DNA of 64,000 nucleotides from Verrucomicrobia bacterium LP2A (GTDB lineage: Bacteria; Verrucomicrobiota; Verrucomicrobiia; Methylacidiphilales; Methylacidiphilaceae), in the NCBI GenBank assembly GCA_000526255.1, contig JAFS01000002.1:558001-622000 (forward strand), written 5' to 3'. The translations under genes were made by a program, and so were the position numbers. The notes under the pieces are model-generated. The model had not been told where the DNA came from. It worked only from the letters and a program-made list of their open reading frames with translations, and ran no database searches. Below are positions 10,159-12,643 of the stretch, in pieces; positions within the stretch are counted from its first letter, which is position 1; every line of letters begins with the position of its first letter.

Positions 10159-10197
10159 CAGAGCGTAATCTATCCGAATGTAACCCGGGCGGATGTC

Positions 10198-10602
10198 ATG
10201 GCGACTGTGCGCAGAAAGGTGGATCTGGAGGTGAGTGCGGACGTTGCGTGGGCAGCGCTCCGACGGTTTGGCGATGCGCACCGCATCTTCGCGGGCGTGC
10301 TTGTCGACTGCCGGGTCGACGGGAATGTCCGCACCGTGACCTTCTCAAACGGACGGACGGTCAAGGAACGGCTGATCACGCTGGACGATCAGGCTCGGCG
10401 GCTCGTCTACACGGTGCTGGACGGCCCGTTCACCCAGCATAGTGCTTCGATTGAGGTTCTCCCGCAGGGAGAAGGAAGCTGTTTGGTCTGGACCTCCGAC
10501 TTCCTGCCGGAACAAGCCACGGAAATGGTCGCGCAACTCTCGGACGCCGGCTGCGCTGCCGTTCGCCACAGCCTGTCGGGAGGTCGCAAAACAGCGGCGT
10601 AG
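10198..10602 (+). CDS. SRPBCC (START/Bet v1-like) family protein
   Basis: 134 residues with the typical SRPBCC opening, VDLEVSADVAWAALRRFGDAH, then an IFAGVLVDCRVDGNVRTV-type strand region, RLITLDDQARRLVYTV and a C-terminal helix (LPEQATEMVAQLSDAGCAAV). These proteins form a hydrophobic pocket and bind or modify small ligands; the ligand cannot be read. Codon use is a little less GC-biased than in thyA, and the gene sits at the left edge of the foreign-looking patch that follows, so it may belong to it. Confidence 0.7.
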   Translation: MATVRRKVDLEVSADVAWAALRRFGDAHRIFAGVLVDCRVDGNVRTVTFSNGRTVKERLITLDDQARRLVYTVLDGPFTQHSASIEVLPQGEGSCLVWTSDFLPEQATEMVAQLSDAGCAAVRHSLSGGRKTAA

Positions 10603-10909
10603 TTCGGCGGCTGGGCTCTTTGCACTCCAGCTCCTGCAGCTTGCGATCTCGAAGAGCGCAAGGTCGGGCTCGGCATCGTCGGTCGGCGGTAGCAGGCAAC
10701 CCAGCGCGATGGCGCGCACCAGCATCAGGGACTTCCTGCCCTTCCAGCAGGAACCCAAACCCCTCAGGGTCTGCGCCGCCATCATCTTGCGTTCTGCCTG
10801 CGCCTGGAAGGGCACCTTCTGCGCCGGAAAGACCCTCTCGATCAGGGCCCGGGCTTCTTTGAGGACAAAAGGGATGAGGCCAGCTTGTTGGGAGGAGTGG
10901 ATGTATGGC
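10603..10909. other. 307-base stretch without a recognised gene
   Basis: Lies between the SRPBCC gene and the PIN toxin. On the minus strand a frame is open from about 10918 down past 10603 (it contains ARALIERVFPAQKVPFQAQ and GSCWKGRKSLMLVRAIALG) but lacks a good start and runs antisense into the SRPBCC gene. It reads more like a remnant of a mobile or accessory gene than a live gene; I cannot name it. Confidence 0.4.
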
Positions 10910-11317
10910 TCACACTTGGCGGATCGAGCGCATGGCGATCGACCTCACGCGGAACATGGGCTTGGTGGGTTTCTCTGCACTGACGAATTCATCCACACCT
11001 GCTGCGAGCGCATGCGCCACGTGGATGGCGTCCATGGCATCGATGCCATGGGTTTCGGCAAGCGCCTGGGCTTGGCGCAATGCATTGGCATTCCAGCCGA
11101 GATTTTGCGCATCCGCGAAGACCGCTTCATAGAACTCAACTTCCTCTTGCTGGCAGTGGTAGCGCGGCTTCGGCAGCACCTCCAGTCGAACCGCGTCGCT
11201 GACAACCAAGATGCGGTCTGGATCATCAAGGACTGCCAAGGCCTTGCGTCCAATGTCATCTTCACCCCGGAAGGCCGCTATCAGCAGGCAGGTATCAATA
11301 TAGGTTCGCTTAGGCAC
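10910..11317 (-). CDS. PIN-domain ribonuclease toxin (VapC-like)
   Basis: 135 residues, a normal VapC length. The PIN acidic set is complete: Asp8 in YIDTCLLIAAF, Glu46 in SDAVRLEVLPK, Asp96 in GIDAMDAIHVAHA and Asp109 in VDEFVSAEKP. Such proteins are Mg-dependent RNases, often cutting tRNA or rRNA. It starts at GTG 11317 with GGAG six or seven bases upstream and overlaps the end of the antitoxin-like gene by 8 bases, the usual antitoxin-first order. It is the third gene of an operon led by a TIGR04255-like protein. Base composition is clearly less GC-rich than the flanks, suggesting acquisition. Target unknown. Confidence 0.85.
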   Translation of the reverse strand: MPKRTYIDTCLLIAAFRGEDDIGRKALAVLDDPDRILVVSDAVRLEVLPKPRYHCQQEEVEFYEAVFADAQNLGWNANALRQAQALAETHGIDAMDAIHVAHALAAGVDEFVSAEKPTKPMFRVRSIAMRSIRQV

Positions 11318-11636
11318 GGTTTACTCCGCCTCGGCGCAAACGCAACTCTTCCTCCAATCCCTCAGCCGATAAAAGCTGGCCGCCGCTTTGCACGTAGGCC
11401 TGACGCAGTGCCCAAAGTCGCTTGCCGAGCTCCGTCCTGGGCTGAAAGCTGAGTTGGGCGTTTTCACGCGGCTCCAAGCTAGAGTGTGCTGTTGTCACGG
11501 CATCAGCATGGTAGTGTATGGTCCAGTCGTTGTGAGGCTGGCATTCCCACGGCTGTCTCTGAGGCTCCTGCCGATAGGCGATGACCGGTGTATCGGAGCG
11601 CGGGAATGGCGGCATGTCCAATGCGAGGTCCCACAT
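11310..11636 (-). CDS. Antitoxin-like protein preceding the PIN toxin, possibly fused to an unrelated N-terminal part
   Basis: About 108 residues from ATG 11636 (GGAG eight bases upstream); GTG 11642, overlapping the preceding stop as GTGA, is the alternative. The C-terminal ~45 residues (SFQPRTELGKRLWALRQAY, then GLEEELRLRRG) look like the toxin-wrapping tail seen in short antitoxins paired with PIN toxins. Those are usually 60-80 residues, and a GTG at 11498 would give a 62-residue protein of that type. The N-terminal half (MWDLALDMPPFPRSDTPVIA onward, Trp- and His-rich) has no DNA-binding domain I recognise and may be a companion of the TIGR04255 protein joined in frame. Confidence 0.65.
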   Translation of the reverse strand: MWDLALDMPPFPRSDTPVIAYRQEPQRQPWECQPHNDWTIHYHADAVTTAHSSLEPRENAQLSFQPRTELGKRLWALRQAYVQSGGQLLSAEGLEEELRLRRGGVNRA

Positions 11637-11638
11637 CG

Positions 11639-12379
11639 TCACTGCTCCGGTTCGAGTTTCTGGATCGTTTCTTCCGTCAGAATTTGTTGGAAGAACAATG
11701 CCCTGGATCGGTCATGCAATGCGTCGAGCTGCTCACGCAAGACATTCCAGTTATCCGGCGTGTTTGCGGGCAACGTCTCCAAGTCGATGATGGAGCCCGG
11801 TATTAGCTCCCCTCCCAAATTGGCTTGTGCCCCGGTGGCGATTTGTATGACGTGCAGATACTCTGCGTCGGCGATTTCCAGGCGCATCTGGACACGATCC
11901 CTGATCTCATGATCGCCAAGATTCATGCGCAACTTGAGCGCTGCGAGATCGCCAGCCAATTCGCCCGTCAGCAAGTCGATGTAGCGCAGCGAGTGACGCT
12001 GAGGGTGAGGAATGAGTCCGCTACCTTCGACAATGTGCGTCAAGGCCACCACGGTTTCCTTGAATCTCTCCCAACCGACGTAGGGCTTGCGGCAGTTGAG
12101 GGTGAGCACTCGATCCCCCACCTGCCAGGCAAATGGCCCACCACGATCTTCCATGAGCATCTTCGGAGCAAGACGCAGGTTTGGATCGAATTGCGCGATC
12201 TGCGCTGGAATGTCGGCCGATGGCAGGCGCCGCAGTTGGAGCGCGGCATGTTTTTTCCTCAGCTTAGTGAAAAGGATGCCAGGCAACACGTCGCCCATGC
12301 CCTGTTCAACCTCGAACTGCACCTGCCAAATTACTTCGATCAGGGGCTCTTTTTTCAGCCTCTTGGGTAATGGCTTCAT
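11639..12379 (-). CDS. TIGR04255-like family protein (sporadically distributed, function unknown)
   Basis: 246 residues from ATG 12379; the frame is open to 12445 but the upstream part has no support. The N-terminus (KEPLIEVIWQVQFEVEQG) and the later HSLRYIDLLTG block, followed by a long C-terminal region ending in a helix (NVLREQLDALHDRSRALFF), resemble the TIGR04255 family, which I recall as scattered, often beside toxin-antitoxin or defence genes. There is no signal peptide or membrane segment. It overlaps the antitoxin-like gene (GTGA at 11639-11642) and so heads a three-gene operon. The biochemical role is unknown. Confidence 0.65.
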   Translation of the reverse strand: MKPLPKRLKKEPLIEVIWQVQFEVEQGMGDVLPGILFTKLRKKHAALQLRRLPSADIPAQIAQFDPNLRLAPKMLMEDRGGPFAWQVGDRVLTLNCRKPYVGWERFKETVVALTHIVEGSGLIPHPQRHSLRYIDLLTGELAGDLAALKLRMNLGDHEIRDRVQMRLEIADAEYLHVIQIATGAQANLGGELIPGSIIDLETLPANTPDNWNVLREQLDALHDRSRALFFQQILTEETIQKLEPEQ

Positions 12380-12643
12380 TGGGTTGTCCCATTTGGGTTG
12401 AGCGATTTTCAATCCAGCCTCGCTCCATAAGCCGACTGGATGCAATGGGAATTTGCCTGGGCGTGAACTGGCGCTTGCGGGGGTTCCCTGCGTGGATGCG
12501 GATGGCTACGTCATCGAGATGACGGGCTCCCTCCCTCTCTGGTCGGCCTTCGTGAGAAATGGCGGCTCATGACCTCAAGCATGGATCTGGCCGTACGAAC
12601 AGTCGCTGCGACAGCCAAATCATTCGGATTCGGAGAAGGCGGT
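12380..12643. other. 264-base gap upstream of the TIGR04255-like operon
   Basis: No gene, hairpin or convincing promoter was found. It should hold the promoter of the minus-strand toxin operon and the 3' boundary of the foreign-looking patch, since composition returns to the chromosomal norm within the PfkB gene. Confidence 0.4.

Follow-up and report, generated by a model that had tools for sequence, protein, structure and literature searches.

A 64,000-nucleotide stretch of the genome of Verrucomicrobia bacterium LP2A (JAFS01000002.1, 558,001 to 622,000, forward strand), called the window here and used for all coordinates unless a locus or contig is named, carries three overlapping genes for a TIGR04255-family protein, a small antitoxin-like protein and a PIN-domain protein. 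These three genes form one real, conserved module. The best explanation of the locus, to which we give somewhat better than an even chance, is that the trio is a tripartite toxin-antitoxin (TA) module that works like the toxin-antitoxin-chaperone (TAC) systems but with a different third protein, and that it was inserted adjoining, or within, a BREX-related defence operon whose methylase later decayed to a fragment.

All three genes lie on the minus strand. The first (11639..12379, ATG start, 246 aa) encodes a protein that scores 109 bits with NCBIfam model TIGR04255.1, against a cut-off of 30 (E 2.6e-31). The middle gene (11310..11642, GTG start, 110 aa), for an apparent chimeric antitoxin-like adaptor, overlaps the first by the four bases GTGA (11639-11642) and overlaps the last by eight bases (11310-11317). 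That last gene (10910..11317, GTG start, 135 aa) is predicted to encode a PIN-domain RNase toxin; its Pfam match to PF01850 (E 6e-11) exceeds the family cut-off. Strand, overlaps and both family names are exactly as a preliminary description of this DNA had given them. The middle protein has no match in searches of Pfam, NCBIfam or the PADLOC library and no DNA-binding domain recognisable in the first two, and none of the PADLOC models fits the trio. GC content is 0.557 for the TIGR04255 gene, 0.598 for the middle gene and 0.583 for the PIN gene, against 0.634 +/- 0.027 for 37 long open reading frames of the window; the lower-GC patch noticed earlier is thus present across the trio, but the drop is clear only in the TIGR04255 gene. 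A promoter and terminator scan found no excess over shuffled sequence.

The PIN protein has four acidic positions, D8, E46, D96 and E115, invariant in seven relatives; the fourth acid is assigned by comparison with VapC. A PIN domain with these residues, and a putative antitoxin gene directly upstream with an eight-base overlap, give the pair the sequence features of a VapC-like type II TA system.

The same arrangement is found in other genomes. In another genus of the same family (locus L009), the TIGR04255, middle and PIN proteins are 68%, 45% and 63% identical to those of the window, and both overlaps are kept, four bases at 2220-2223 and eight bases at 2548-2555 of that locus. Two further genomes (L040 and L056) have the same gene order with PIN. 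A genome scan found ten close relatives of the window TIGR04255 protein, and nine of them are whole genes followed by a middle gene of about 95-120 aa and then a toxin gene, which is MazF/PemK in eight (L032-L039, with PemK matches in Pfam) and PIN in L040. The tenth locus, L041, ends at a contig end.

A wider survey took in 75 TIGR04255 loci from three phylum-level samples, with mechanical gene calls. Family searches found TIGR04255 in 18 of 388, 26 of 397 and 21 of 392 genomes of these samples, 65 of 1,177 in total. The second gene starts no more than 20 nt from TIGR04255 in 71 of the 75 loci, with an overlap in 61, and the third gene starts no more than 20 nt from the second in 66 of 72. 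As a control on the upstream side, a same-strand gene no more than 30 nt away is present in 3 of 74 loci, and shared upstream families amount to only three pairs. Of the 72 loci with a third gene, 22 have a "fourth gene", chosen by the same rule, no more than 20 nt away, and just one family is shared. In almost every locus TIGR04255 opens a tight three-gene operon, of which it is the constant member while the third gene varies. The earlier suggestion that TIGR04255 serves as a third component therefore stands as architecture, and the tally of gene partners it had proposed shows tight pairs behind TIGR04255 in nearly all loci, though no specific tie to PIN.

Third genes fall into one family of 26 loci, one of 8, one of 7, HEPN-like proteins in 4, PIN in 3, and others. 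By type, the last gene encodes PIN, MazF/PemK, a HEPN-like protein, a predicted ADP-ribosyltransferase fold or a member of an unassigned family, so that PIN is one toxin among several. The HEPN match of the L002 third gene (Pfam, E 5e-4) is just under the family cut-off. The commonest third gene (L083 2727-3116 and 25 related genes) carries no family annotation: it has no match in Pfam or NCBIfam, and Foldseek alone gives no significant match. Its AlphaFold model (pLDDT 93.2) aligns best with ADP-ribosyltransferases, namely KptA at Z 7.7 (2.5 A, 88 residues), Tse2 at 6.3 and DarT at 5.5, with unrelated folds appearing from Z 3.2. Because nearly all of the first 25 structural rows are ADP-ribosyltransferases, judged by their titles, an ADP-ribosyltransferase fold is likely for this model.

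The middle protein is, by sequence comparison, a chimera whose N-terminal part follows the TIGR04255 lineage and whose C-terminal tail follows the toxin. Residues 1-68 (11439..11642, minus strand) make up the first part, a proposed docking segment for TIGR04255, and residues 69-110 (11313..11438, minus strand) make up the putative PIN-antitoxin tail, RTELGKRLWALRQAYVQSGGQLLSAEGLEEELRLRRGG. Compared with the MazF locus L032, whose TIGR04255 protein is 74% identical to that of the window, the N-terminal part aligns at z 11.8 and the tail at z -1.0. Compared with the PIN locus L040, whose TIGR04255 protein is more distant, the values are 2.2 and 22.4, and with the PIN locus L056 they are 0.2 and 16.5. 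Across all three other PIN loci the tail reaches z 24.0, 22.4 and 16.5. The same tail forms the C-terminus of two-gene PIN antitoxins that are carried by cyanobacterial plasmids and begin with DUF2281, and this agrees with the earlier view of the middle gene as antitoxin-like. Since one part tracks TIGR04255 and the other tracks the toxin, the tail probably serves in toxin binding and the N-terminal part appears matched to TIGR04255, which would bind it.

The TIGR04255 tree also records exchange of toxins. L032, with MazF, nests with the PIN loci of the window and L009 (support 99/98), and L040, with PIN, falls among MazF loci. Even when only the well-supported branches are counted, PIN requires at least three changes and MazF at least two.

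The TIGR04255 protein itself has a confidently modeled, predicted alpha+beta fold (AlphaFold pLDDT 95.8, pTM 0.92) and no known enzyme signature. A first alignment of 10 diverse members was too varied for use in scanning, and across 71 sequences no positions other than Y100 and F229 are as much as 90% conserved. The proteins are acidic, with a median net charge of -6 (-3 in the window), and profile searches found no DNA-binding or helix-turn-helix family in them. Low residue conservation together with acidity speaks for a fast-evolving binding protein and against both an enzyme and a DNA-binding protein of the usual kind. From this low conservation and the co-variation with the N-terminal part of the middle protein, we favour a role as a binding protein, or chaperone-sensor, over one as an effector. 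An internal duplication was considered and rejected (hhalign of the two halves, probability 0.8%).

In TAC systems, a third protein stabilises the antitoxin, and chaperone-addiction segments are transferable, variable in sequence and present on different antitoxin families (PMC5105189). CmdTAC releases its ADP-ribosyltransferase toxin when phage capsid protein diverts the chaperone (PMC11618068). We suggest a similar working for the window trio. The PIN protein would be an RNase toxin, and the middle protein its antitoxin, with about 40 C-terminal residues that bind and block PIN and about 68 N-terminal residues recognised by TIGR04255. TIGR04255 would be a non-enzymatic binder that keeps hold of the antitoxin, makes it stable and serves as the trigger: once TIGR04255 is removed, either by a phage component or because its own supply stops, the antitoxin would fail and PIN would act. 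A toxin and its matching antitoxin tail (PIN or MazF) can be exchanged while TIGR04255 stays.

Likeness to TAC systems such as Mtb-TAC (HigB1-HigA1-SecB) and CmdTAC lies in three adjacent genes, in a third protein that accompanies several antitoxin and toxin families, and in an antitoxin bearing a transferable segment matched to the third protein, the last a candidate feature in the window. The toxin of CmdTAC is an ADP-ribosyltransferase, and the commonest third gene of TIGR04255 loci appears to be one by fold. The differences are that the third protein is SecB there and TIGR04255 here, that the chaperone gene comes last in TAC whereas the TIGR04255 gene comes first, and that the matched segment is C-terminal in TAC antitoxins but N-terminal in the window middle protein. 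The window trio has the three-gene operon of a TAC system and lacks its SecB-family third protein; given the differences in third protein, gene order and segment position, we describe the unit as working like TAC and do not class it as TAC.

Several results weigh against this reading. The TIGR04255 fold has no confident relative, with no PDB match at E <= 1e-3. Sequence kinship with SecB is rejected: none of the 71 proteins matches Pfam SecB, and profile-profile comparison with SecB proteins gives a probability of 0.2%. SecB is also missing from the fold-comparison rows, which by itself does not decide the matter. A general hydrophobic stretch resembling a chaperone-addiction segment is likewise rejected, as it is present in only about a quarter of middle proteins (24% of the first-50-residue segments of second genes, against 2-7% elsewhere in gene 2) and absent from that of the window. 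PIN itself follows in only 3 of the 75 surveyed loci. Finally, TIGR04255 may be dispensable for neutralisation, because PIN-tail pairs exist without it on cyanobacterial plasmids and in L118. The two-gene DUF2281/PIN pairs of the cyanobacterial plasmids (pHT582-2 and relatives) have a homologous PIN protein (36-42% identity) and the same antitoxin tail, but no TIGR04255 gene, and their antitoxin begins with DUF2281 in place of the TIGR04255-linked segment.

PIN-tail pairs lacking TIGR04255, including one within a DISARM operon, speak for a rival reading, in which the trio is in effect a plain two-component PIN addiction pair that stabilises a defence island and TIGR04255 is an auxiliary rider of little effect; so does the fact that the TA genes of the window are intact while its methylase is only a fragment. 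We think this unlikely, as tightly coupled gene pairs with unrelated toxin types follow TIGR04255 in nearly all 75 loci and the antitoxin N-terminal part is matched to TIGR04255. Three-component TA systems with a separate regulator, such as omega-epsilon-zeta and PaaR-PaaA-ParE, offer another model, in which TIGR04255 would be the DNA-binding repressor of the operon and replace the missing DNA-binding domain of the antitoxin. The window trio shares their gene order of third component, antitoxin and toxin, its middle protein lacks a recognisable DNA-binding domain, and the TIGR04255 model weakly resembles TATA-binding protein (best Foldseek E 2e-3, TM-scores about 0.3-0.4), rows that we did not use for function. 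TIGR04255 differs from those regulators in being acidic and without a DNA-binding signature; moreover, one class of loci has a second gene with its own helix-turn-helix, and a repressor leaves unexplained why the N-terminal part of the middle protein tracks the TIGR04255 lineage. We regard a repressor as quite unlikely.

A catalytic role for TIGR04255, as an effector or co-toxin and not as a binding partner, is very improbable. Its function is unassigned, and guanido kinase rows appear in VIA-align at Z about 8, but this level is common among unrelated folds, disagrees with Foldseek and was not used; there is no conserved catalytic set, and third genes already supply enzymes. Chance neighbourhood without a functional link is hardly credible: overlaps are frequent in compact genomes, but the trio recurs in distant lineages with controls included, and the survey contradicts it.

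The TAC-like reading places the module in a defence setting, and the surroundings of the trio bear on this part of it. The genes lie in a 2,480-bp insertion (10164..12643) between thyA and a ketohexokinase-like gene, delimited by blastn against two relatives in which the gap between these genes is 54 bp (L106, genome G004) and 36 bp (L110, genome G003). The ketohexokinase-like gene is 92% identical between the window and G004. Besides the trio, the insertion holds a methylase remnant and, on the opposite strand, a Polyketide_cyc2/SRPBCC-like gene (10198..10602, plus strand; PF10604, E 4e-15), which is missing at the same site in the two relatives and is probably a passenger.

The remnant (10648..10872, minus strand), recorded earlier simply as a gene remnant, is the N-terminal fragment of an anti-phage DUF1156 DNA methylase, in the same orientation as PIN and immediately after it. 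By blastn it is 76% identical over 225 bases to an "anti-phage-associated DUF1156" gene of plasmid pTs485 (E 8e-38). By tblastn, residues 9-95 of that DUF1156 protein align to 10944-10648 (minus strand) with 58% identity (E 5e-25), so that the protein match reaches 10944; it scores 104 bits, against 29.6 for the best of 20 shuffled windows. A search of the source genome for a second copy found only the remnant itself. In the betaproteobacterial locus L040, an intact DUF1156-related methylase of a different type follows PIN at the same place; it has no match to the remnant, which belongs to the other DUF1156 type.

BREX-related (BR) systems comprise a DUF499 ATPase, a DUF1156 methylase and PglZ, with PIN and HEPN RNases among their auxiliary effectors (PMC12839542). 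The gene set around close relatives of the trio corresponds to these systems. In L034, L035, L036, L037 and L040 the cassette has a PglZ-like gene on one side and a DUF1156-related methylase on the other, with an ATPase of about 930 aa ahead, and ATPase, PglZ and methylase are intact in L034, L035 and L040; L041 has the order ATPase-PglZ-TIGR04255 up to its contig end. Relatives of the trio thus lie inside BR operons, whose known auxiliaries include PIN and HEPN RNases, although the same paper makes no mention of TIGR04255, SecB, MazF or a tripartite cassette (PMC12839542). Elsewhere, L056 adjoins a type I restriction-modification gene and ABC-3C genes, and L009 a DUF2971 gene. Four close relatives (L032, L033, L038 and L039) have no such defence neighbours, and counts of defence-island loci can be relied on for the close TIGR04255 clade only. 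BR membership is defined by ATPase, DUF1156 methylase and helicase, plus PglZ in type 3; beside the window module, of this set solely the N-terminal DUF1156 fragment was found, and the locus is not counted as a BR system. With operons of this kind around close relatives and the remnant behind the window trio, the defence context suspected in the preliminary description is borne out. An intact TA next to a decayed methylase is compatible with addiction no less than with defence.

Further loci were seen along the way. The source genome has four TIGR04255 matches, one of them partial, and five PIN genes, which come together only at the window trio; the other TIGR04255 matches (C1:345426-346148, L003; C1:594713-595456, L008; C1:315861-316100, L011) have other or broken partners, in L003 an uncharacterised gene and a DUF7689 gene. 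Third genes of L006, L013, L018, L008 and L086 belong to recurring families that bear a QGD...CD signature, measure about 184-265 aa and have no Pfam counterpart. Middle proteins with a strongly hydrophobic stretch in the first 50 residues include those of L040, L006, L064 and L068. Directly after an integrase-like gene, an IMG/VR viral contig (L042 1345-2935) has a cassette of TIGR04255, 93 aa and 199 aa, and an unannotated 15-kb plasmid of Phocaeicola massiliensis (L104 2929-4644) has one of the same class, with TIGR04255, 115 aa and 209 aa, after another. No PIN relatives were found in viral contigs. Among PIN pairs without TIGR04255, one of Planktothrix agardhii plasmid p1 (L102 1708-2408), with a DUF2281-like antitoxin, sits between PglX and DrmA of DISARM, and one in Geminocystis is near a DUF1156 gene. 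Thiodictyon plasmid pTs485 (L121 1989-2638) has an unrelated VapC pair inside a BREX-related DUF499/DUF3780/DUF1156/phospholipase-D anti-phage operon.

The analysis gives TIGR04255 a testable function. The family is not named in the literature searched, which mostly lay outside preprints and subscription papers, and we claim no priority. A natural swap between 74%-identical TIGR04255 proteins, with PIN in the window and MazF in L032, shows which half of the antitoxin would dock and which would bind the toxin, and makes domain-swap tests straightforward. More tentatively, and with rather less than even confidence, TIGR04255 could represent a large class of antitoxin chaperone-sensors that is distinct from SecB and so far undescribed. 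As the fixed element of a modular immune device in about 1 in 18 sampled bacterial species, it would connect PIN, MazF, HEPN, ADP-ribosyltransferase and uncharacterised toxins to a single scaffold that senses infection, and the device would guard BREX-related and restriction systems. If the TAC-like reading is true, this kind of toxin control would not be tied to SecB, and a second, unrelated family would fill this role for toxins of many kinds.
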